From: Spirochaetota bacterium
GTDB taxonomy: Bacteria; Spirochaetota; Spirochaetia; Treponematales; Treponemataceae
Length of the DNA: 64,000 nt
Assembly: GCA_016285185.1 (NCBI GenBank)
Contig: JAEEQG010000148.1
Location: forward strand, 1 to 64,000
Direction: 5' to 3'
The notes below the pieces were generated by a model, which saw only the letters and a program-made list of their open reading frames with translations, was not told the origin of the DNA and searched no databases. Made by a program: the position numbers and the translations under genes. This document shows positions 8,548 through 33,793 of the stretch, in pieces (the first letter of the stretch is position 1; every line of letters starts with the position of its first letter).

Positions 8548-9261
8548 ATGCTCAATATTAAAACTGTTAAAAATCCGCTTGTAACGGATGAAACAAAAGA
8601 CGGCTTCTGCTTTAGAAGTACGTGCTCAGAATCATTAAACATTAAAAAGCTTGCGCTTGAAATGACCGACTGGAACTCTTCCTTTACGGAAGCTGACTAT
8701 CTTGGTATGCTTTCCGTATTAGGGAAAATTGTAGTAAAACACCTTGCCGAAGGCTACAATATAGAGCTTCCGTTTGGTATTGTCCGCGCGAATGTCACGG
8801 GAACCTGTGAAAATATTCAGGACGGTTTTACGCTTGGAACCGGAAACAACATACTGGGCTTTTTGTTCAATGCAAATGAAGAAACCCGTAAATATGTACA
8901 AGATAATCTTGTATACAAGCAGCTCCCGCCTGATATTACAGGAGAAGCACGGCTTTACCGTATTACTGTACTGAATGATGATGCCAGTGAGAGTAAAAAT
9001 CTTTCTGTAAGTGCAGGTAAAGTTCTGCGTCTGCATGGCCATAATCTGCGATTTGACATTGAAGATGATGCACAGGGAATATTTATGGAAAATGAAAACA
9101 CTAATACCCGTATTTCGGTTTATAACCGAAGGGGTACAAACGTGGTTGACGTTCCAATTCCTGCAGGTCTGGCAGCCGGTAATTACAATGTAAGTATTAT
9201 TACCAAGCCAGGAAACACCTACTTTACCGCAACAATTGATTCTGAAGTAACGGTATCATAG
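8548..9261 (+). CDS. HU-like DNA-binding domain protein with C-terminal Ig-like (DUF4469-type) domain
   Basis: N-terminal 'TEADYLGMLSVLGKIVVKHLAEGYNIELPFGIVRANVTGT' resembles an HU-like fold; C-terminal beta-rich 'RLYRITVLND...GKVLRLHGHNLRF...' Ig-like. Confidence 0.7.
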   Translation: MLNIKTVKNPLVTDETKDGFCFRSTCSESLNIKKLALEMTDWNSSFTEADYLGMLSVLGKIVVKHLAEGYNIELPFGIVRANVTGTCENIQDGFTLGTGNNILGFLFNANEETRKYVQDNLVYKQLPPDITGEARLYRITVLNDDASESKNLSVSAGKVLRLHGHNLRFDIEDDAQGIFMENENTNTRISVYNRRGTNVVDVPIPAGLAAGNYNVSIITKPGNTYFTATIDSEVTVS

Positions 9262-9441: not shown

Positions 9442-11265
9442 ATGAAAGAATTTGAATATCCTTTTGACAGCGCATATCTTCTCAAAAAGAGAAAGTCCAT
9501 AAAGCGCGAGCTTCTGGCTGAAATTGAAGCGGCGAAAGCAGGTGGCGCAAAAATTCTTGAAAAGCGTATCGCAATCCTCGGTGGCTCAACTACGCATGAC
9601 ATACGAGACATGCTTGAGCTTTTCCTTCTGAACAACGGAATACAGCCGGAGTTTTACGAAAGCGAATATGATCAGTATTGGAACGATGTGATGTTCGATA
9701 ATGCTGAACTTGTAGAATTCAAGCCGGACATCATTTTTATTCACACATCTACACGGAATATAAGGAATTTCCCTACAATGCGTGATTCACGAGAAACTGT
9801 GGATACGCTTCTATCAGCGCAGCTTGCTCATTTTGAAGCGCTCTGGCAAAAGGCAGCAGAAACTTACAAATGCCCGATAATCCAGAACAACTTTGAACAG
9901 ACGTTCTACCGGCTTTTGGGCAACCGCGATGCTTGGGATTATAGAGGGCATCTCAATTTTGTTTCGCACCTTAATCAGAAATTCTATGAATACGCGCAGA
10001 CACACGAAAACTTCTATATAAATGACATAAATTATATTGCAAGCTGCTACGGCCTTCAAAAGTGGGCTGACCCGTTTTACTGGCACATGTACAAATATGC
10101 GCTCTGCATGGATGCAATCCCGGAATTTGCTTATAACCTTGCGAACATCATCAAGTCTGTCTACGGCAAGAACAAAAAGGCTGTTGTCTGCGATTTGGAT
10201 AACACGCTCTGGGGCGGAATCGTGGGCGATGACGGCGCGGAGAATATCGAGATAGGGCAGGAAACTTCTGTCGGTCAGCTTTACTCAGAATTTCAAGGCT
10301 ATCTGAAAGCGCACAAAGACTTGGGCGTGCTTCTTACTATTGATTCCAAAAACGACGAGGAAAATGCTCTTGCAGGCCTGAATCGTCCTGACAGTATTTT
10401 AAAACCTGATGATTTTATTGTAATAAAGGCAAACTGGAACCCGAAGGACAGAAACCTTCTGGAAACTGCAAATGAGCTGAATATCGGATCTGACGCGATG
10501 GTCTTTATTGACGACAACCCTGCCGAGCGTGAAATTGTCCGTTCGCAAATCGTCGGTTCAATAGGCGCAAAAGTTGCCGTACCGGAAATGACGGCGCCGG
10601 AAAAGTACATCAATATTCTTGACCGGAGCGGCTTTTTTGAGGTTACGCAGTTTTCTACTGATGATTTGAGCCGCAATGAAATGTACAAGGCAAATGCCGA
10701 GCGCGCAAAGCAGCAGGCAAGCTTTGCAGATTACGGAGAGTACCTGCTTTCGCTTAAAATGAAAGCAGAAATTAAGCCGTTTGCGCCGATTTATATGAGC
10801 CGGATTGCTCAGCTTACTAACAAGAGCAATCAATTCAATCTCACGACTTTTCGCTGCACTCAGGCAGATATCGAGCGTGTTGCTAACGCTCCAAATTACA
10901 TCACGCTGTACGGAAAGCTTGAAGATAAGTTCGGCGACAACGGCGTTGTTTCAGTTGTGTTTGGTCATATTGATGAAAAAGACAGCGCAATCTTTCATAT
11001 AGACTTATGGCTTATGAGTTGCCGTGTCCTGAAGCGCGACATGGAACAGTCAATGATGGATTCTCTGATGGCGGAATGTGCAGCTCATGGAATCAAAACT
11101 GTCAAAGGCTACTACTACCCAACAGCCAAGAACAAGATGGTAAAAGAGTTCTTCGCCCAGTTCGGCTTTGAAAAGACGAGCGAGGACGAAGCCGGCAACA
11201 CTACATGGGAACGCGCTGTAGAAAAGTATCAGAATCTGAACAGATATATCAAAGTAAATGAATAG
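9442..11265 (+). CDS. FkbH-like HAD-IIIC family phosphatase/acyltransferase (glyceryl-ACP-type loading enzyme)
   Basis: 'KKAVVCDLDNTLWGGIVGDDGAENIEIG' (HAD DxD; FkbH signature), 'MVFIDDNPAERE'. Confidence 0.9.
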   Translation: MKEFEYPFDSAYLLKKRKSIKRELLAEIEAAKAGGAKILEKRIAILGGSTTHDIRDMLELFLLNNGIQPEFYESEYDQYWNDVMFDNAELVEFKPDIIFIHTSTRNIRNFPTMRDSRETVDTLLSAQLAHFEALWQKAAETYKCPIIQNNFEQTFYRLLGNRDAWDYRGHLNFVSHLNQKFYEYAQTHENFYINDINYIASCYGLQKWADPFYWHMYKYALCMDAIPEFAYNLANIIKSVYGKNKKAVVCDLDNTLWGGIVGDDGAENIEIGQETSVGQLYSEFQGYLKAHKDLGVLLTIDSKNDEENALAGLNRPDSILKPDDFIVIKANWNPKDRNLLETANELNIGSDAMVFIDDNPAEREIVRSQIVGSIGAKVAVPEMTAPEKYINILDRSGFFEVTQFSTDDLSRNEMYKANAERAKQQASFADYGEYLLSLKMKAEIKPFAPIYMSRIAQLTNKSNQFNLTTFRCTQADIERVANAPNYITLYGKLEDKFGDNGVVSVVFGHIDEKDSAIFHIDLWLMSCRVLKRDMEQSMMDSLMAECAAHGIKTVKGYYYPTAKNKMVKEFFAQFGFEKTSEDEAGNTTWERAVEKYQNLNRYIKVNE

Positions 11266-11273
11266 TGTGAATT

Positions 11274-12179
11274 ATGGAGAATTCTATGGGTGAATTGGTA
11301 AATCAGTTTATTTTCAAAATTGGAGAGCGAGACCCATTTCAAAGGAAAGCTTTGGAGAAAGATGAACCCCTGATCGACGAAAAAGAAAATTTGGAACATT
11401 TTTTACAGTTTTGTGTCCAACAGAAGAAGAATACAATTGACGAGTTGGTGGAAGCTTATCTTTTTTTAATAAATATGTTTAGAGAAGAAACCTATTATTT
11501 TATTTCAAATGGTAAATACCGTTTCAGTAAATATGAGGAAATCGGAAATTCCGTGTATGGAAACCGTGATTATATGCAGAAATATATGATTGGTTTGGCT
11601 ATCTCTGACTACATTATGATTCCACATCTGAAAATGATACGTTTTTTCCAAGAGAATGTGCAGAAATTAAGCAACGGGGGGGGAAAATATTTTGAAATCG
11701 GTCCAGGTAGCGGGCAATTTCTTGTAAAAGCTATAGAAAGAGGAAATTTTACAAAATACAAAGCTTGTGATTTGAGTCAAACATCCGTAAACCTTTGTAA
11801 TGACTATTTGGCATATTCAGGTTTAATTGATAAATGTAAAGTTGAATGCAAAAATTTTTTTGATTATGGTGAAGAAGAAAAATATGATTGCATAGTTATG
11901 GGCGAAGTTTTGGAGCATGTTGAAAATCCTTCTGCAATGCTCAAGCGAATATACGAAATGCTAAAAGATGGTGGAAAAGCATTTATTACAACAGTAATAA
12001 ATGCTCCGGCTATTGATCACATATATCTTTTTTCAACCAAGGAGGAAGTTTTAAACTTGCTAGAAAATGCAGGTTTTGGAATTGAAAAATTCATTCTTGC
12101 AACTGCAGGTAATGTTCCTTTAGAAAAAGCAGAGAAAAAGAAATTTGCAATTGATATGGCAATGATACTAACAAAATAG
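11274..12179 (+). CDS. Class I SAM-dependent methyltransferase
   Basis: 'KYFEIGPGSGQFLVKAIERG' (motif I), 'YDCIVMGEVLEHVENP', 'LKDGGKAFITT'. Confidence 0.9.
   Translation: MENSMGELVNQFIFKIGERDPFQRKALEKDEPLIDEKENLEHFLQFCVQQKKNTIDELVEAYLFLINMFREETYYFISNGKYRFSKYEEIGNSVYGNRDYMQKYMIGLAISDYIMIPHLKMIRFFQENVQKLSNGGGKYFEIGPGSGQFLVKAIERGNFTKYKACDLSQTSVNLCNDYLAYSGLIDKCKVECKNFFDYGEEEKYDCIVMGEVLEHVENPSAMLKRIYEMLKDGGKAFITTVINAPAIDHIYLFSTKEEVLNLLENAGFGIEKFILATAGNVPLEKAEKKKFAIDMAMILTK
11676..11683 (+). repeat. Poly-G tract (G8) inside methyltransferase ORF
   Basis: gcaac-gggggggg-aaaatat, encoding N-G-G-G-K just upstream of SAM motif I. Confidence 0.9.
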
Positions 12180-12187
12180 GAGTTTTT

Positions 12188-12430
12188 ATGACACGGGAAG
12201 AAGTTTTTGAAAAGCTTAATGAGGTTTTCCGCGATGTATTCGATGATGAAGACATTACGGTAACAGAAACGACAAATGCTGATGATATCGAAGATTGGGA
12301 TTCTCTGAGCCACATCAACCTTGTCGTTGCGGTCGAAAAAGAATTCGGCATCAAATTCAGCATGGGTGAAACTCAGAAAATGAAGAATGTCGGCGAGATG
12401 GTAAATATCATTCTGGAACGTGTGAAATAA
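12188..12430 (+). CDS. Acyl carrier protein
   Basis: 80 aa; 'DIEDWDSLSHINLVVAVEKEFGIKF' with phosphopantetheine Ser in DSL. Confidence 0.94.
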   Translation: MTREEVFEKLNEVFRDVFDDEDITVTETTNADDIEDWDSLSHINLVVAVEKEFGIKFSMGETQKMKNVGEMVNIILERVK

Positions 12431-12825
12431 TGATAATACATCACGTTGGATTTCTAACCAAGAATCTCAAAAAATCAGAATCTGAATTTTTAGGTCTTGG
12501 TTTTGAAATCGAAAAAGAAGCAAAATTTGACCATATCAGAAAAGTGAATATTTCTTTTTTGATTAATAATGGCTACAGAGTTGAACTGATTGAACCTGTC
12601 GGAAAAGATTCGCCTCTTTATCCACTTTTGAAGCACTACAAGAATACACCATATCATTTTTGCTATGAATCAGAAAACTTCGATAAAGATATTAAAAAGC
12701 TTTCTGAAAATGGATATGCAGTGATCAATGAGCCTAAAGTTGCACCTTGCATAAATGATGGTTCTAAACAAGTGTGTTTTTTAATATCGACAAATACCGG
12801 TATTATTGAATTATTGGAGAAATAG
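12430..12825 (+). CDS. VOC family protein (methylmalonyl-CoA epimerase/glyoxalase fold)
   Basis: 'IIHHVGFLTKNL', 'YRVELIEP', 'PYHFCYE', 'GIIELLEK': His/Glu metal-ligand pattern of the VOC fold. Confidence 0.85.
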   Translation: MIIHHVGFLTKNLKKSESEFLGLGFEIEKEAKFDHIRKVNISFLINNGYRVELIEPVGKDSPLYPLLKHYKNTPYHFCYESENFDKDIKKLSENGYAVINEPKVAPCINDGSKQVCFLISTNTGIIELLEK

Positions 12826-12844
12826 GCAAAATAGGATAATTATA

Positions 12845-14329
12845 ATGACTCTCACAGGTATTAGTTTCGTTTTATTTTTTTTTATAGCATTTAATATTTA
12901 TTATTTGGTTCCTGTAAAAAAGCAGTGGTATGTATTATTAGCTGCAAGTTTATGTTTTTATGGATTAATTTCTATAAAAATGTTGTTTATATTACTTTTA
13001 GTATCTATTATTTCATATTTAGCAGCTATATTTCATAAAAAGAAGTTTTTATTCTGGTGCTTGTTCTTGCTAACATTATTTCCGCTTGTTTTGTTTAAAT
13101 ACGCTGCTTTCTTTTCAGACAGCTTGAATATTGTTTTTTCTCTTATAAAAATTAATATGAGGATTCCTCAGTTAAACTTTTTATTACCACTGATGCCTGT
13201 AGGTATTTCATTTTGGACTTTTATAAGTTTGAGTTATTGCATTGATGTACAGCAAAATGATACACATTTGGAGAAAAATTTTCTAAAACATTTATTGTAT
13301 ATTTCGTTTTTTGGATATATAACATCTGGTCCTATTGTTAAACATAATGAAGTTGCAAATCAATTATATATTGGATATAAATTTGAAATAAGCTCCGCTA
13401 TTTCAGGTTTAAAACGAATTGCTTTTGGGTATTTTAAAAAACTCTGTATTGCAGATGCTATTGGATCTGTGATAACCCCTGACATTGCGTTAACAAATAC
13501 TGGGATAACAGTATTTATTTCCTTGATATTATTTTCATTGCAATTATATTTTGATTTTTCCGGTTATACGGATATTGTTATAGGTTGTTCAAAGATGTTA
13601 GGTATTAAATTGCCTGAAAATTTTAATGCACCGTATTTTTCAAAATCAATTACAGAATTTTGGCGCCGTTGGCATATTACTTTAGGTGAATGGTTTAAAA
13701 GCTATTTATTTTATCCATTTTTAAGAACAAAGTTTATTCAAAAAATTTCTGATTTACTAGATTGGAATAAGTATCTGAAAAAAACGATACCGACTTGTAT
13801 CGCATTGTTTGTTTTTTGGTTTACTGTTGGTTTATGGCACGGAGCTTCTTTTGGATTTATTTTTTATGGGTTATTTCATGGTTCTTTTATGATTTTTTCT
13901 ACAATAATAAAACCTTTAGTGAAAGACTTTTATAAAAAACTGCCATTTTTGAAAAATAATCCATTATGGTCCTTGTTTCAAATAATCAGAACATATATCT
14001 TAGTTTGTTTAGGTTATTCATTTTTCTGGACAGGTGGCTTTCCTAAAGGAATTACAATCATAAGAAATTTATTCATTTCAGAAAACTCATATTATTCCAT
14101 TCCACTTAACTTAGGAAAACTTATTTTACCAGTGCTTTTTTCGATTATTATTCTTGGATATGAGCAATTACGATATGTAAAACCAGAATCAGATAAATTG
14201 ATTAAGGATTTTTATAACAAATGTCCTAAATTTATTAAATACATTGTTTATTCTTTAATAATATTATGTATAAGTGCTTTGATTATACGAGAACGTGATT
14301 ATGCTTCTTTTATTTATTATAAGTTTTAA
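12845..14329 (+). CDS. MBOAT family O-acyltransferase (AlgI/DltB-like), copy 1
   Basis: 'LLPLMPVGISFWTFISLSYCIDV', 'PYFSKSITEFWRRWHITLGEWFKSYLFYP', 'FTVGLWHGASFGFIFYGLFHG'. ORF extends to TTG 12806, but ATG 12845 is a better start. Confidence 0.93.
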   Translation: MTLTGISFVLFFFIAFNIYYLVPVKKQWYVLLAASLCFYGLISIKMLFILLLVSIISYLAAIFHKKKFLFWCLFLLTLFPLVLFKYAAFFSDSLNIVFSLIKINMRIPQLNFLLPLMPVGISFWTFISLSYCIDVQQNDTHLEKNFLKHLLYISFFGYITSGPIVKHNEVANQLYIGYKFEISSAISGLKRIAFGYFKKLCIADAIGSVITPDIALTNTGITVFISLILFSLQLYFDFSGYTDIVIGCSKMLGIKLPENFNAPYFSKSITEFWRRWHITLGEWFKSYLFYPFLRTKFIQKISDLLDWNKYLKKTIPTCIALFVFWFTVGLWHGASFGFIFYGLFHGSFMIFSTIIKPLVKDFYKKLPFLKNNPLWSLFQIIRTYILVCLGYSFFWTGGFPKGITIIRNLFISENSYYSIPLNLGKLILPVLFSIIILGYEQLRYVKPESDKLIKDFYNKCPKFIKYIVYSLIILCISALIIRERDYASFIYYKF

Positions 14330-14338
14330 GGGAAATTT

Positions 14339-15391
14339 ATGTTTGATTTTTATAAAAAACTTTTAAAATATTGTATTCCGTTGTTTTTCTTCATACCGAT
14401 TCCTGCTTTTATTTATTATATTGGATTAGAACATCTTTCGATTAAAGATTCGTTTGTATTGCAAAATAAAGATAGAGAGATAAAATTGGGTAAAGCTTAT
14501 AGTAATGATATACAAACAACTAGTTTTTATTATATTTTACAAGAAAAACCTGAATTTTTAATTTTAGGAGCCTCACGTGTTGCCAATTTTAAATGTGAAG
14601 ACTTTTCCGAATCTTGTTACAATGCAAATATAAATGCTATTTCTGTTAAATTCTATTTGCAATATCTTATGGAATTACAAAAGAATGGATATTGCCCTAA
14701 AGATTTGCTCTTAGGTTTGGAACAATGGTTTTTTAATAATAATTTTAATTGTGATTCTAAAGATTATTCTGATGAAATTTGTAATTATTTAAGTTTTGCT
14801 AACAAAAAACAACATATTACTCCATATGCATATAGAAAAATAGTTGATGATTTGCTTCTTGGGAAAATAAATACCAAAATGATAGAAAGTAAAAACATTG
14901 GTGTTTCTGCAAAGATGAGAAATACTGGAAGAAGTTTTTTGGGTACAGGTTATGATTATAATTTTTTTAAATTGAAAAAATCTATATATTTAGAAGATGA
15001 TCATAAAAGACTATTAAATTCAATAAAAGAAAATACCTACTTAGATAGTAGATATATCAATGGTAATGACATTAACGTAAATACGATTAATCAATTAGAG
15101 TATTTGTTGAAATTTTGTAAAGATAATAAAATAAAATTATATGTGTTTTTGGCACCATTTTCTCCTGATGTTCTTCTTGAAATGAAAACAAATGGTAACT
15201 ATCAATATTTAAATAAGATAAATAAAGTTTTAACTACATGTGTAAATAAATATAATTATCCATTATTTGATTATACAGAAATGAATAATCCAGAAATAAC
15301 ATCATATAATTTTTCAGATGGATATCATGGTGATCCGTTTGTTTATAAAATCATTACTAAAGAGATATTAGAACAAATCCATGAAAAATAA
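14339..15391 (+). CDS. SGNH-like / AlgX-DltD-like partner protein
   Basis: N-terminal TM; 'FLILGASRVANF' (GxS block) and C-terminal 'FSDGYHGDPFVY' (D-x-x-H-like); follows MBOAT. Confidence 0.55.
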   Translation: MFDFYKKLLKYCIPLFFFIPIPAFIYYIGLEHLSIKDSFVLQNKDREIKLGKAYSNDIQTTSFYYILQEKPEFLILGASRVANFKCEDFSESCYNANINAISVKFYLQYLMELQKNGYCPKDLLLGLEQWFFNNNFNCDSKDYSDEICNYLSFANKKQHITPYAYRKIVDDLLLGKINTKMIESKNIGVSAKMRNTGRSFLGTGYDYNFFKLKKSIYLEDDHKRLLNSIKENTYLDSRYINGNDINVNTINQLEYLLKFCKDNKIKLYVFLAPFSPDVLLEMKTNGNYQYLNKINKVLTTCVNKYNYPLFDYTEMNNPEITSYNFSDGYHGDPFVYKIITKEILEQIHEK

Positions 15392-24944: not shown

Positions 24945-26486
24945 ATGCTTTTTAACAGTGTACAGTTTTATGTGTTTTTTGCGATTGTAGCGGTTCTTTA
25001 TTTTGTATGTACTCACAAAATTCGTAATAATCTTATCAGCCGCTTTCTGCTGCTTGTCGCAAGCCTTTTCTTTTATGCATGCTGGAATCCGACTTATCTG
25101 CTTTTGATTTTAACATCTGTCGTTATCACCTGGACAAGCGGTCTTTTAATGGAAAAAGCCTCTGAGTCAGTTCATAAAAAGAAGATGATTTTAACGGCTT
25201 CTTTAGTAATAAACCTTCTGATACTGTTCTTTTTTAAATATTACGGATTCTTTACTGATACTGTTCAGTTTATTTGTTCCAAAATCGGAATGCAGGCAAA
25301 ACTTCCTGCGTTTTCCGTACTGCTTCCGGTAGGAATAAGCTTTTATACTTTTCAGGCTCTCGGTTATTCGATTGATGTATACCGTGGAACTGTAAAGGCT
25401 GAGCACAGCTTTATAACATATGCTCTTTTTGTTACTTTTTTCCCGCAGCTTGTTGCCGGTCCTATCGAACGTTCAGGCAATCTGCTTCCACAATTTAAGG
25501 TTGACCATTCTTTCGATTATGACAGAGTGACAGACGGCTTAAAGCTGATGGCTTATGGTATGTTCAAGAAAGTTGTTGTAGCAGGGCAGCTTGCCCGGTA
25601 TACGGATCTTGTTTATGCCGACATTGCAGGTTCCTCGGGAACAGCGATTGCAATTGCAACAGTATTTTTTGCATTCCAGATTTTGTGTGATTTCTCCGGC
25701 TATTCGGATATTGCGATTGGTGCGGCGCAAGTTCTTGGATTCAAACTTATGCGGAACTTTGAACGTCCGTATTTTTCTAAAAGCATTGCCGAATTCTGGA
25801 GACGATGGCACATTTCGCTTTCAACTTGGTTCAAGGATTATGTGTATATTCCGCTTGGTGGCAGTCGCTGCAGCACATTGCGACGATGTTTTAATCTTTT
25901 TGTTACATTCTTGATAAGCGGTTTGTGGCACGGTGCTGCATTCCACTTTGTTCTGTGGGGTGCGATACACGGCTTGTATCAGGTTATCGGTGTAATAACA
26001 AAACCGTTTCGTATAGCTTTGCTAAGCAAAGCCAGCATTATATCAGAAGATGGTAAGACTAAACGATGGTGGCAGTTTATCCAGACTGCATTTACGTTTG
26101 TATTGGTTTGCTTTGCATGGATTTTTTTCAGGGCTTCTACAACGGCAGATGCATTGCTCGCAGTGCAAAAATTATTCTTGTTTCCTAAAGAGATTGTTCT
26201 GTCTGTAACAGGGCTTTTGAATGGTACTATAGGATTTGGAGAGGGATTTTTCAGACCGTATACTCTGGGTTTTTACAAAAGGACTCTTGCATCTTTCATA
26301 TTATTTATTGCTGTTATCACAGTGGTATCACTTGTTGCAAGAAACAAGACTGGTTGTCAACTTATAAGAGAAAAGCCGCTGCTTGTAAGATGGAGTTTGT
26401 ATTATGCTGTTTTTGCATTTGTTTTTTATTATATGGTTGATGCAGGTCTATTTGAAGCACAGGAATTCATTTATTTTCAGTTTTAG
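24945..26486 (+). CDS. MBOAT family O-acyltransferase, copy 2
   Basis: 'LLPVGISFYTFQALGYSIDVYRG', 'RPYFSKSIAEFWRRWHISLSTWFKDYVYIPLGGSR', 'FLISGLWHGAAFHFVLWGAIHG'. Confidence 0.96.
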   Translation: MLFNSVQFYVFFAIVAVLYFVCTHKIRNNLISRFLLLVASLFFYACWNPTYLLLILTSVVITWTSGLLMEKASESVHKKKMILTASLVINLLILFFFKYYGFFTDTVQFICSKIGMQAKLPAFSVLLPVGISFYTFQALGYSIDVYRGTVKAEHSFITYALFVTFFPQLVAGPIERSGNLLPQFKVDHSFDYDRVTDGLKLMAYGMFKKVVVAGQLARYTDLVYADIAGSSGTAIAIATVFFAFQILCDFSGYSDIAIGAAQVLGFKLMRNFERPYFSKSIAEFWRRWHISLSTWFKDYVYIPLGGSRCSTLRRCFNLFVTFLISGLWHGAAFHFVLWGAIHGLYQVIGVITKPFRIALLSKASIISEDGKTKRWWQFIQTAFTFVLVCFAWIFFRASTTADALLAVQKLFLFPKEIVLSVTGLLNGTIGFGEGFFRPYTLGFYKRTLASFILFIAVITVVSLVARNKTGCQLIREKPLLVRWSLYYAVFAFVFYYMVDAGLFEAQEFIYFQF

Positions 26487-26498
26487 TTTTTATAATTA

Positions 26499-27431
26499 AT
26501 GAAAAGATTTTTAACAAAAATTGTATTAATAATTCTTCCATTTGTCTTGCTGTTATTTGTAATAAATTACGCATACAAAAAATCCTTTTACTGGAAAACT
26601 CAGCGTGTGCAGTCGAAATTTTTAAATGTACCCAATGAGATTGAGCTTGCAAATTTAGGTTCTTCTCAGGGACATTGCAGCTTTAATTATGACGATTTCC
26701 CCGAGTACAAATGCTTTAATTTTGCACTGCCTTGGCAACATAATAAATACAATTATTATGTATTAAAACAGTATGCTGATCAATTAGCTCCAGGTGCTGT
26801 ATTGATTATTCCAATTGCATATTTTGACATTACACGTATAGAAAAAGATGTTTGCCAAAATTATTATGGTATTTTGGACAGAGGTAATTTTCCTGATTGG
26901 AATATAAAAGATTGGCTGAAGGTAGAAGTTTTACCTGTTTTTTATACAAAAGAAATTTGGAAAAAACTTTGTATGACAGAAGCAAATTCTCCTATACTCA
27001 TTTCCCAAAAAATACCTATTTCTGAAAATGATCTTGCTATACAGAGTAAAGAAACATTTTTGTCATGGACAGAAAAAAATGAAGCAGAACAAGGAAAAAA
27101 AGGTTTTGAATATAATATAGAAATGATGTCTAGAATAATAGATTTTTGCTATAAAAAGGATATTGTTCCTATTATAGTAAGTATTCCGCAGATAGATGTT
27201 TTAAACAATTTATATTCACAGGCGGGGTTTTTTGATACTTTTTGTAATTTTACAGATGAATTACAAAAAAAGTATTCCTCATTGCTCTATCTTGATTACT
27301 CAAGAAGCAGAGAATATGCTAATGATAGTACTCTGTTCGGGGATGTTGCACATCTTAACATATATGGAGCAAAAAAGTTCACAGCCCAGATTGTGCAGGA
27401 TTTGAAGAATGCCGGACTGTTAGAGGAGTGA
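26499..27431 (+). CDS. SGNH-like MBOAT partner protein, tandem copy A
   Basis: N-terminal TM, 'IELANLGSSQGHCSFNY', C-terminal 'FGDVAHLNIYGAKKFTAQI' (D-x-x-H). Confidence 0.6.
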   Translation: MKRFLTKIVLIILPFVLLLFVINYAYKKSFYWKTQRVQSKFLNVPNEIELANLGSSQGHCSFNYDDFPEYKCFNFALPWQHNKYNYYVLKQYADQLAPGAVLIIPIAYFDITRIEKDVCQNYYGILDRGNFPDWNIKDWLKVEVLPVFYTKEIWKKLCMTEANSPILISQKIPISENDLAIQSKETFLSWTEKNEAEQGKKGFEYNIEMMSRIIDFCYKKDIVPIIVSIPQIDVLNNLYSQAGFFDTFCNFTDELQKKYSSLLYLDYSRSREYANDSTLFGDVAHLNIYGAKKFTAQIVQDLKNAGLLEE

Positions 27432-27441
27432 TTTTGTTACA

Positions 27442-28365
27442 ATGAAAAGATTTCTTATAAAAGTTTTATCTGTTGTTCTGCCGTTTATAATTCTTCTTTT
27501 TGTATTGAATTTTATTTATAAACATTCGTATTATTGGACAGAGGAAAGAGAAGAATCAAAATTTAATAATGTTCCTGATAATATTCAACTTGCTAATTTA
27601 GGGTCTTCGCATGGGGATGCATTTTATTATGAACCTTTTGAAGAATATGTATCGTTCAACTTCAATTTGCAGTGGCAACATCATATTTTTAACTATTATA
27701 TATTAAAACAATATGCGGATAATTTTGCTCCCAATGCTGTTCTATTAATTCCTATTTCATATTTCAATATAACTAGAATAGAAAAAGAAAATAATTTCAG
27801 ATATTACACTTTTCTTAATAGAGACAATATACCTGGTTGGAAATTTCACGAATACTTGTTATATAAGTGTTTCCCATTATTTTCTAAAATAGATGTATGG
27901 AAAAAATTATTGACTATGAACACTAAAATGGAAATTATTCCCAAAACTACTCATTCATCAAAGGAAATAACCGAATTAGTTGATTTTTATGCTAATTGGT
28001 GGTTAGGGAATGATTCTAATGTTGAAAAAGGTGAGGAAGGATTTCAATATAATATTGAAGCTGTCTCAAAAATTATAGATTTGTGTATGGAAAAAGATAT
28101 AGTTCCTGTATTAGTTTCAACACCAATAATGGATTGTCTTAATGAGAGATTTGCCAAAGCTGATTTTTTTGAAACATTTTATCGCTTTACTGATGTATTG
28201 AAACAAAAGTATACGGATATAATTTATCTTGATTATTCAGATAATATTGAATACTCGACAAATTATTCATTGTTCAATGATCCTGCACATCTCAATATAT
28301 ACGGCGAAAAAAAGTTCACGGCCCAGATTATGCAGGACTTAAAAGATGCAAATCTGCTGCAATAA
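27442..28365 (+). CDS. SGNH-like MBOAT partner protein, tandem copy B
   Basis: Paralogue of 26499..27431: 'IQLANLGSSHGDAFYYEPFEEY', 'FNDPAHLNIYGEKKFTAQIMQDLKDANLL'. Confidence 0.6.
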   Translation: MKRFLIKVLSVVLPFIILLFVLNFIYKHSYYWTEEREESKFNNVPDNIQLANLGSSHGDAFYYEPFEEYVSFNFNLQWQHHIFNYYILKQYADNFAPNAVLLIPISYFNITRIEKENNFRYYTFLNRDNIPGWKFHEYLLYKCFPLFSKIDVWKKLLTMNTKMEIIPKTTHSSKEITELVDFYANWWLGNDSNVEKGEEGFQYNIEAVSKIIDLCMEKDIVPVLVSTPIMDCLNERFAKADFFETFYRFTDVLKQKYTDIIYLDYSDNIEYSTNYSLFNDPAHLNIYGEKKFTAQIMQDLKDANLLQ

Positions 28366-31864: not shown

Positions 31865-33793
31865 ATGGAAAAATCAATTGAATTATTCGTTCCCGGAAGA
31901 TTGTGCCTTATTGGTGAACATTCTGACTGGGCAGGACTTTATAGAACACTGAATGCGAAAATTGTTCCCGGACAGGCAATTGTTACCGGAATAGAGCAGG
32001 GCATATGGGCGAAAGTTGAAAAAGCAGATTCATTTATTGTAGAAAGCAGGATTCCTGCTTACAAAGGACAGAAGCTGGAATGCGCGATGGATACCGAAAA
32101 GCTTAAGACTATTGCCAATGAGGGAGGCTTTTTTTCTTATGTTGCGGGTGTTGCTTCATATATTAATGAAAATTATAACGTCGGCGGTTTAAGAATAAAC
32201 ATAACAAAGATGGATCTACCCATAAAGAGCGGGCTTTCATCTTCTGCCGCAATCTGTGTGCTTGTCGCACGTGCTTTTAATGTTTTGTACCGCTTGAACC
32301 TGAATACGATGGGCGAAATGGCCGTTGCATACTTTGGCGAGCAGCGCACGCCATCACGATGCGGTCGTCTTGATCAGGCATGCGCTTATGGTGTAAATCC
32401 TGTAAACATGACCTTTACTGGGAATGAGATAAGCGTAAAACCTTTGAAATTAAAAGTTCCTATGTATTTTGTAGTTGCAGATTTGAATAGTCACAAAGAT
32501 ACCGTAAAAATACTGGGTGATTTGAACAAGTCCTTCCCGTTTGCGCAGTCAAAGCTGGATGAGGATGTACAGCAGGCATTAGGACCTGATAATGAAATTT
32601 TTATAAAAAAGGGAATAAGTTCTCTTGAACAGGGTAATCTTGTAGAATACGGAAAGATTATGAGGAATTATCAGGAAAACTTTGACAAAAAGGTAGCACC
32701 TGCTTGTCCTGAAGAACTTTCATCCCCGGTTCTGCATTCAGTTCTGAATGATAAAACTCTTGAACAGTGGATTTGGGGTAGCAAGGGAGTTGGTTCCCAG
32801 GGAGACGGCACGGTTCAGTTTCTTGCTAAGGATGAGGAATGCCAGAAAAAGATAATAGATTATCTTAAAAAAGAAAAAAACATGAACGGTTTTCCGCTTA
32901 CACTCAAGCCTAAAAAAGCCGTTAAAAAAGCCATTATTCCTGTAGCCGGTTTTGGGACCCGTTTGTTCCCGATGACAAAAATCATCAAAAAAGATTTTTT
33001 CCCTGTAATGGATAAGGACGGAATCCTTAAACCTGCAATACTCATTCTGCTTGAACAGCTGACTAATGCAGGAATAGAAAAGATCTGTCTTGTTGTAGCT
33101 GAAGGTGAGAAGTCACTTTATGACTCTTTCTTCAGTTCTCTTAGTGCGGAATACTATGAAAAACTGCCTGAAGAAAAAAAGCGGTATGAGGATTTGCTGG
33201 AAAACTTAAAGAACAGGGTAACCTATGTTGTTCAAAAAGAACGCAAAGGATTTGGTCATGCGGTTTTTATGTGCAGGGATTTTTGTGATAATGAGCCGGT
33301 TTTATTGCTGCTCGGGGATATGATTTATCGTAGCAATCAGAATAAAAACTGCATGGAACAGATGATCGATGCTTATGAACTTTGTGGACTCCCTGTTGTT
33401 TCAATGCACAGAGTGCCAAAAAAGGATGTGGTTCATTACGGAATTATGGCAGGAGAATGGGAAGACAAAGAACAGACAGTACTTAAACTATCTGTTTTTT
33501 GTGAAAAACCGGCCGAAGATTATGCGCAGGAGTATTTGAAGGTTGCAACAAAAAAAGAAAGTGAAAACTATTATGCCGTATTCGGTCAGTACATTCTGAC
33601 AAAAGAAGTTTTTGAAGAGCTTGAACAAAATATCAAAACCGGAAAAACAAGTCAGGGTGAATTCCAGCTTACAGATGCGCTTGAACAGACAATGGAAAAA
33701 ATCGGTATGAGAGGCTTCCTTGTAGATGGCAGGAGTTATGATATAGGATTACCGGAAAAATATATAGAAACAATAAAAACATATGCAGATTAA
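31865..33793 (+). CDS. Fused GHMP (galactokinase-like) sugar kinase and GalU-like nucleotidyltransferase
   Basis: Kinase half: 'VPGRLCLIGEHSDWAG', 'LPIKSGLSSSAAICVLVARAFN'. From about aa 350: 'AIIPVAGFGTRLFPMTKIIKKDFFPVMDKDG...PAILILLEQLTNAGIEKICLVV', 'KGFGHAVFMCRDFCDNEPVLLLLGDMIY'. Confidence 0.9.
   Translation: MEKSIELFVPGRLCLIGEHSDWAGLYRTLNAKIVPGQAIVTGIEQGIWAKVEKADSFIVESRIPAYKGQKLECAMDTEKLKTIANEGGFFSYVAGVASYINENYNVGGLRINITKMDLPIKSGLSSSAAICVLVARAFNVLYRLNLNTMGEMAVAYFGEQRTPSRCGRLDQACAYGVNPVNMTFTGNEISVKPLKLKVPMYFVVADLNSHKDTVKILGDLNKSFPFAQSKLDEDVQQALGPDNEIFIKKGISSLEQGNLVEYGKIMRNYQENFDKKVAPACPEELSSPVLHSVLNDKTLEQWIWGSKGVGSQGDGTVQFLAKDEECQKKIIDYLKKEKNMNGFPLTLKPKKAVKKAIIPVAGFGTRLFPMTKIIKKDFFPVMDKDGILKPAILILLEQLTNAGIEKICLVVAEGEKSLYDSFFSSLSAEYYEKLPEEKKRYEDLLENLKNRVTYVVQKERKGFGHAVFMCRDFCDNEPVLLLLGDMIYRSNQNKNCMEQMIDAYELCGLPVVSMHRVPKKDVVHYGIMAGEWEDKEQTVLKLSVFCEKPAEDYAQEYLKVATKKESENYYAVFGQYILTKEVFEELEQNIKTGKTSQGEFQLTDALEQTMEKIGMRGFLVDGRSYDIGLPEKYIETIKTYAD

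Follow-up and report, generated by a model that had tools for sequence, protein, structure and literature searches.

What might a run of genes be doing that combines a carrier-protein loading enzyme with a membrane-bound O-acyltransferase in the midst of sugar genes? This question is raised by a 64,000-nucleotide stretch of DNA (hereafter the window) from a Spirochaetota bacterium of the Treponemataceae (GCA_016285185.1, contig JAEEQG010000148.1, positions 1 to 64,000). At 9442-15391, six genes encode an FkbH-type protein, a methyltransferase, an acyl carrier protein (ACP), a VOC protein, an MBOAT acyltransferase and a protein with SGNH-type motifs. The bacterium is a rumen Treponema, and many gut Clostridia have the gene set too. 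An original prediction, made from the sequence, held that this cassette makes a C3 acyl-ACP and decorates a surface glycan with it. Having compared the cassette with related loci in other genomes, we think it probable that it is a carrier-protein-fed surface-glycan acylation system, in which FkbH would take the place of an adenylating ligase.

FkbH, ACP and MBOAT genes are linked across phyla

We fetched 80 loci of the FkbH clade to which the window protein belongs (the W clade), from Treponema, Lachnospiraceae and others. An ACP gene adjoins the FkbH gene in 75 of these loci, and an MBOAT gene lies within 9 kb in 63 and within 3.7 kb in 33; the linkage of all three persists through changes in gene order and inversion. 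Other genes are more variable (VOC in 41 loci, MaoC in 11, SDR in 8), and VOC and MaoC were found together in 0/80 loci (Fisher p 1.6e-4, ancestry ignored). The closest named FkbHs, from uncultured Spirochaetaceae and Treponema assemblies, are 82-85% identical to that of the window. Two loci with such FkbHs (L033 and L034) carry MaoC and SDR in place of the methyltransferase and VOC, and their MBOATs are only 36-37% identical to the window MBOAT. Since the tailoring genes and the MBOAT differ despite closely related FkbHs, modules seem to have been exchanged around a conserved FkbH-ACP pair. Of the markers searched, three minimal loci (L039, L044 and L048) hold no more than FkbH, ACP, an SGNH-like gene and MBOAT.

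A sample of 388 Clostridia genomes, a less biased basis for counting, gave the same picture. FkbH was present in 55 genomes, and 67 loci were inspected. An MBOAT gene lay within 5 kb in 25 of the 67 loci (p ~2e-19, given an assumed, unmeasured background of 8 MBOATs per 3 Mb), and 22 of these 25 also had a stand-alone ACP. The remainder comprised 7 NeuB-type loci, 9 FkbHs fused into polyketide synthases or nonribosomal peptide synthetases (PKS/NRPS), 5 near ketosynthase or condensation domains, and 21 others, many of them on short contigs. Where the FkbH was a full-length W-clade member (at least 55% over 1.7 kb) on a long enough contig, an MBOAT was found within 5 kb in all cases (21/21). The co-occurrence of FkbH, ACP, VOC and MBOAT genes, proposed at the outset as a check, was thus found across phyla, and judged by this recurrence the cassette is not a chance cluster.

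Two further arrangements were seen among the fetched loci. In L035, L036 and L045, FkbH is separated from ACP/MBOAT by an aldo/keto reductase, split transketolase-like halves (assigned by eye) and MaoC, which makes these loci one more tailoring variant. L054-L111, from Lachnospiraceae, represent a long conserved surface-glycan locus. Upstream is a divergent MBOAT pair; then come SGNH, FkbH, ACP, a membrane glycosyltransferase, an inverted VOC, GtrA, another membrane glycosyltransferase, a radical-SAM-like protein and a further SGNH.

FkbH and ACP form a candidate glyceryl-loading pair

The original prediction depended on a catalytically intact FkbH. In an alignment of 12 FkbHs, the HAD residues D251, D253, T255, S302, K335, D357 and D358 of the window protein are invariant, as is the C-terminal Cys527 (in LMSCRV), and the N-terminal and HAD parts match BF1531 (PDB 3slr) with E 1.4e-49. 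The window ACP is 64-85% identical to ACPs adjoining FkbH in eight other W-clade loci. In the tetronate and methoxymalonyl pathways, FkbH and an ACP yield glyceryl-ACP (PMC7489565). We consider it likely that the window FkbH would likewise load a glyceryl unit onto the window ACP.

The MBOAT resembles DltB

By sequence profile, DltB is the closest solved MBOAT (E 1.4e-38), and DltB (6bug) is also the best match of the predicted fold (pLDDT 88.8; E 1.1e-13). DltB takes its acyl group from a carrier-protein thioester. Against the DltB model TIGR04091 the window protein scores 153.5 bits, below the cut-off of 375, so it is not classed as a DltB equivalog. His290 and His345 (507-residue numbering) are conserved. 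Translation probably begins at ATG 12845, which has AGGA upstream and follows VOC by 19 bp, and not at TTG 12806.

To place this protein, we used an MBOAT tree of 63 rows, from which a broken long-branch row (L180_nf) was left out; the main clades were the same as in the first tree, and supports are given as UFBoot/SH-aLRT. The FkbH-linked MBOATs fall mainly into one 41-row clade (100/100). It contains the window MBOAT (W_MB1) together with those of L033 and L034 (95/91), a 32-row group (100/99) drawn entirely from FkbH loci, and a Treponema group of 6 rows (100/99) whose loci lack FkbH. In most of the latter loci examined (L197-L200 and L202), the neighbors include a DltA-like AMP ligase, a stand-alone carrier protein or a LysA-like decarboxylase; in the stretch read of L201 there is no ligase, carrier protein or decarboxylase. 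Because one type of MBOAT is paired with different ACP-loading enzymes, its donor would be an acyl-ACP, and what has been swapped in the system appears to be the enzyme that loads the carrier. We have good confidence that the window MBOAT would accept its acyl group from the window ACP. In line with the original prediction, an ACP-borne donor in place of acetyl-CoA is the best reading, given that DltB is the nearest relative and that members of the clade occur elsewhere with a DltA-like ligase and carrier.

Two other MBOAT sets deserve mention. The Treponema set L197-L202, with a DltA-like ligase, a carrier protein, a LysA-like pyridoxal phosphate decarboxylase, an SGNH-like gene and MBOAT, is a Dlt-like system whose cargo may be an amine or amino acid. 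Within the window, a second MBOAT gene (24945-26486) opens a run at 24945-28365 in which it is followed by genes for a pair of SGNH-motif proteins (GSSQ/DVAH and GSSH/DPAH) that share about half of their residues; this MBOAT belongs to a clade other than that of the cassette MBOAT, and FkbH is not nearby.

A VOC subfamily adjoins FkbH and ACP

The window VOC protein as query gave no match to the genome contigs. We searched the 388 Clostridia genomes with its structurally solved relative, the "glyoxalase I" of Clostridium acetobutylicum (PDB 3hdp/2qh0). Among 22 matches, the 13 best (E up to 5e-16) all adjoin FkbH and ACP; two further strong matches (L159 and L160) do so as well, and exceptions occur from about E 2e-16 (L161). 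All 13 VOC-bearing genomes were among the 55 that bear FkbH (hypergeometric p 2.5e-12, shared ancestry ignored). Four of the weaker matches, checked by open reading frame (ORF), lie in operons of the methylmalonyl-CoA mutase/decarboxylase type, with neighbors judged by eye. Most FkbH-linked VOC proteins have D34-x-x-R37 where methylmalonyl-CoA epimerases carry EEQ(K/R), and the window protein scores 43.9 bits against the epimerase model TIGR03081, below its cut-off of 114.95. By alignment and gene neighborhood, the FkbH-linked VOC is a distinct subfamily and a dedicated partner of FkbH and ACP. FkbH and VOC also occur within one megasynthase protein, in L162 and L220; this fused pair in PKS/NRPS proteins (L162:5247-14714 and L220) suggests an epimerized glyceryl unit in a nonribosomal product.

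Glyoxalase I and methylmalonyl-CoA epimerase both act by shifting a proton on the alpha carbon of a thioester. As glyceryl-ACP is a 2-hydroxyacyl thioester, epimerization at C2 would be the simplest cofactor-free reaction for the VOC protein. We put the chance that it epimerizes the ACP-bound 2-hydroxyacyl (glyceryl) unit at about even. Relatives of 3hdp adjoin FkbH and ACP, which points to a different natural substrate.

Methyltransferase and SGNH-motif protein

The remaining two proteins are the least well placed. The methyltransferase extends a UbiG-like core by about 130 residues at the N terminus; its PDB matches are partial and weak, and no close relative was found in 196 Treponemataceae or the 388 Clostridia genomes. 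Its action on the C3 unit is a tentative assignment, to which we give slightly less than an even chance. The sixth protein has an N-terminal hydrophobic segment followed by GASR (at 77) and DGYH (at 327). It matched no Pfam or NCBIfam family, profile iteration detected no relative in any fetched locus, and its single-sequence structure model (pLDDT 37) was not used. We lean toward an SGNH-type partner, predicted to stand outside the cytoplasm beside the MBOAT as DltD, AlgJ and PatB do.

Proposed mechanism and alternatives

Taken together, these data suggest the following route. As expected from its family, FkbH would draw glyceryl phosphate from 1,3-bisphosphoglycerate, an intermediate of glycolysis, dephosphorylate it and, probably via the conserved Cys, charge the phosphopantetheine of the ACP with the D-glyceryl unit. 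The metal-dependent VOC protein would then epimerize the ACP-bound 2-hydroxyacyl thioester at its C2 proton, and the methyltransferase may O-methylate the bound unit. By homology to DltB, the MBOAT would take the acyl group from the cytoplasmic ACP and move it across the membrane, where MBOAT and the SGNH-motif protein would attach it as an ester to a glycan outside the cytoplasm, the product of the neighboring glycosyltransferase genes. Overall, this would be a Dlt-like route with FkbH replacing the adenylating ligase DltA. In outline the predicted ACP-dependent C3-acyl decoration holds up, through gene linkage, FkbH residues and a DltB-like MBOAT. Its less supported parts are the action of the methyltransferase on the glyceryl group, a true SGNH acyltransferase as the sixth protein, glyceryl itself and not a tailored C3 unit as the acyl group, and the nature of the acceptor.

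Several points weigh against this proposal. The SGNH assignment is weak (no relatives found, pLDDT 37), and the methyltransferase, which has no close homologue, occurs in 0/80 related FkbH-locus architectures. The linkage statistics take no account of ancestry that the loci have in common. W_MB1 sits on a long branch (1.49 changes per site), which makes its place within the clade less sure, and the FkbH-adjacent MBOATs of L053, L066, L097, L108, L110 and L145 fall in another clade, though L053 and L066 have a main-clade MBOAT as well. The support consists of sequence, gene neighborhood and predicted fold.

We also considered whether the MBOAT and the C3 unit belong together at all. A different acyltransferase could place the unit on a sugar nucleotide or a lipid-linked sugar inside the cytoplasm, with MBOAT and the SGNH-motif protein forming an unrelated O-acetyl- or acyltransferase of the glycan locus. 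The analogue to expect would then be the dimethylglyceryl-pseudaminic acid of Campylobacter, and such a division is consistent with NeuB-type loci that have FkbH, ACP and VOC without MBOAT (L139, L141, L147, L150 and L159) and with the frequency of MBOATs in glycan loci, of which the second one in this window is an example. It is made improbable by the tie of W-clade FkbH to one MBOAT clade, within which a sister group pairs with another ACP loader, by the minimal FkbH-ACP-MBOAT-SGNH loci (as far as the markers searched), and by the absence of a cytoplasmic acyltransferase from the window cassette. More remote still is a pathway for a small secreted metabolite, of methoxymalonyl or tetronate type, with MBOAT and SGNH as chance neighbors. 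FkbH, ACP and an O-methyltransferase do belong to the methoxymalonyl-ACP set (PMC7489565), and several Clostridia FkbHs are fused into PKS/NRPS. The FkbH-MBOAT linkage is recurrent, however, and the genes scanned at 5.5-33.8 kb, mostly sugar genes, include no ketosynthase, condensation domain, acyl-CoA dehydrogenase or FabH-like synthase; we regard this pathway as very unlikely.

The identity of the acyl group can be questioned separately. The donor might be another C3 or C4 acyl-ACP, such as lactyl or 3-hydroxybutyryl, with FkbH serving only as an acyltransferase or as a phosphatase for a different substrate. MaoC and SDR modules, which replace VOC elsewhere (11/80 loci), could turn glyceryl-ACP into lactyl-ACP or act on 3-hydroxybutyryl-ACP. 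In bryostatin biosynthesis, FkbH with a dehydratase and a ketoreductase has been proposed as a source of lactyl-ACP; we found no report of this in the open-access literature searched. The window cassette, however, has neither MaoC nor SDR, its FkbH retains the HAD and Cys residues that 1,3-bisphosphoglycerate chemistry requires, and the known function of FkbH is glyceryl loading (PMC7489565), so that a different donor is quite unlikely here.

Comparison with known acylation systems

Like the Dlt system (DltA ligase, DltC carrier, DltB MBOAT and SGNH-like DltD), the cassette would have a stand-alone carrier charged in the cytoplasm, a DltB-fold MBOAT and a candidate anchored extracytoplasmic partner. 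Unlike Dlt, it includes tailoring enzymes and would charge its carrier with FkbH and not with an ATP-dependent D-alanine ligase, and its MBOAT falls below the DltB family cut-off; as the host is a spirochaete, the acceptor is probably not teichoic acid. No AMP-binding protein was found among the genes scanned around the cassette. For want of a DltA ligase and of a DltB score above the cut-off, we do not count the cassette as a Dlt member; it is better placed as a variant of MBOAT surface acylation that depends on a carrier protein.

AlgI/AlgJ/AlgX and PatA/PatB also use an MBOAT with an SGNH-type partner to O-acylate surface polymers. They transfer acetyl groups and lack an encoded acyl-ACP supply, whereas the cassette encodes ACP, loader and tailoring enzymes in one gene run. 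The tetronate and methoxymalonyl-ACP sets differ in that a FabH-like synthase or dehydrogenases feed a PKS, where the cassette has VOC and MBOAT. The FkbH-linked VOC proteins share with 3hdp/2qh0 and the methylmalonyl-CoA epimerases the VOC fold, the H/E/H/E ligands and, as predicted, thioester alpha-carbon chemistry, but form a separate subfamily below the TIGR03081 cut-off.

A further parallel comes from flagellar glycans. DUF4910- and Antibiotic_NAT-type genes, which we take to be families of the Campylobacter Cj1295-Cj1302 set, adjoin FkbH in L031, L147, L150 and L159; the genes scanned near the window cassette include neither type. L147, L150 and L159, in which FkbH-ACP-VOC stands with NeuB, DUF4910 and Antibiotic_NAT genes, resemble the Campylobacter jejuni locus. 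The flagellin of C. jejuni 11168 bears dimethylglyceryl-pseudaminic acid, and dimethylglyceric acid is missing from strains 12664, in which the fkbH-domain gene cj1302 is a pseudogene, and 12661, which is without the "epimerase" gene cj1301 (PMC7099621). Loss of cj1302 or cj1301 thus goes with loss of dimethylglyceric acid, a correlation only, which we draw from those data and which was not tested there. Compared by description, the C. jejuni dimethylglyceric-acid genes (Cj1295-Cj1302) are similar in placing fkbH-domain and "epimerase" genes in a surface-glycan locus; they differ in that no MBOAT is reported and the acyl group is on the nonulosonic acid of flagellin. In the open-access literature we found no paper tying FkbH to MBOAT in a glycan context; an earlier description elsewhere is possible, and an FkbH-charged Dlt-like decoration route seems undescribed.

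Cassette layout and genomic setting

An ORF check found all six genes on the + strand, tightly spaced as the original prediction had it, and their coordinates are given in Table 1. In order, the genes are separated by 8 bp, 8 bp, a 1-bp overlap, a 20-bp overlap (a 19-bp gap if the MBOAT starts at its ATG) and 9 bp. Family matches bear out the identities proposed for the first five products. The ACP has the serine of the DSL motif, and the VOC protein has the His/Glu ligands (H5/E52/H76/E127, invariant in an alignment of 19 homologues); the sixth protein has its two motifs and no family match. A scan for promoters and terminators gave sites no commoner than in shuffled sequence.

Table 1. Genes of the cassette, with positions in the window and the matches on which each assignment is based
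Product	Position	Strand	Basis
FkbH-type HAD-IIIC phosphatase/acyltransferase, 607 aa	9442..11265	+	TIGR01686 268.9 bits (curated cut-off 146.65); FkbH_N 57.2 bits
S-adenosylmethionine (SAM)-dependent methyltransferase, 301 aa	11274..12179	+	Methyltransf_23 60.6 bits; UbiG under cut-off
Stand-alone ACP, 80 aa	12188..12430	+	PP-binding; phosphopantetheine Ser39 in WDSL
VOC protein, 131 aa, FkbH-linked subfamily	12430..12825	+	Glyoxalase_4; PDB 3hdp/2qh0 E 7e-33
DltB-like MBOAT O-acyltransferase, 494 aa (ATG 12845) or 507 aa (TTG 12806)	12845..14329	+	Pfam MBOAT 46.2 bits
Membrane-anchored protein with SGNH-type motifs	14339..15391	+	Motifs GASR and DGYH, and position only

The genes scanned at 5.5-33.8 kb are mostly for glycosyltransferases, UDP-galactopyranose mutase and other sugar enzymes. 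The assembly comprises 2.77 Mb in 173 contigs. G+C content is about 40% over FkbH and the methyltransferase, against 26-30% for much of the surroundings, and FkbH was matched in 0/7 other genomes of the same genus that were searched. For these two reasons, the cassette looks like an acquired accessory set. Directly upstream, an ORF at 8548-9261 has no NCBIfam match and resembles by eye an HU-like DNA-binding protein that has a beta domain at its C terminus. Farther away, a single ORF at 31865-33793 fuses a GHMP kinase to a nucleotidyltransferase, possibly a bifunctional sugar kinase/pyrophosphorylase for glycan precursors.

Implications

Acetyl and D-alanyl groups are the cargo of the best-known MBOAT systems for surface acylation. 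The chances are about even that the cassette represents a widespread and so far unrecognized class in gut anaerobes, with an FkbH-charged ACP, swappable tailoring (VOC, MaoC plus SDR, and others) and export through a DltB-type MBOAT, and with the VOC proteins, 3hdp included, as a new family of 2-hydroxyacyl-ACP epimerases. The proposal would explain why many Clostridia FkbHs do not lie beside a PKS: 25/67 loci are linked to an MBOAT, versus 14/67 with PKS/NRPS genes nearby or fused to the FkbH. It also offers a new substrate that can be tested on a "glyoxalase I" of solved structure. If the proposal is true, the feed from 1,3-bisphosphoglycerate would tie surface chemistry to glycolytic flux, independently of acyl-CoA or ATP-dependent ligation, and base-labile esters of the glyceryl, lactyl or methylglyceryl type, readily lost when glycans are analyzed by standard means, would be expected on the surfaces of rumen and gut bacteria.

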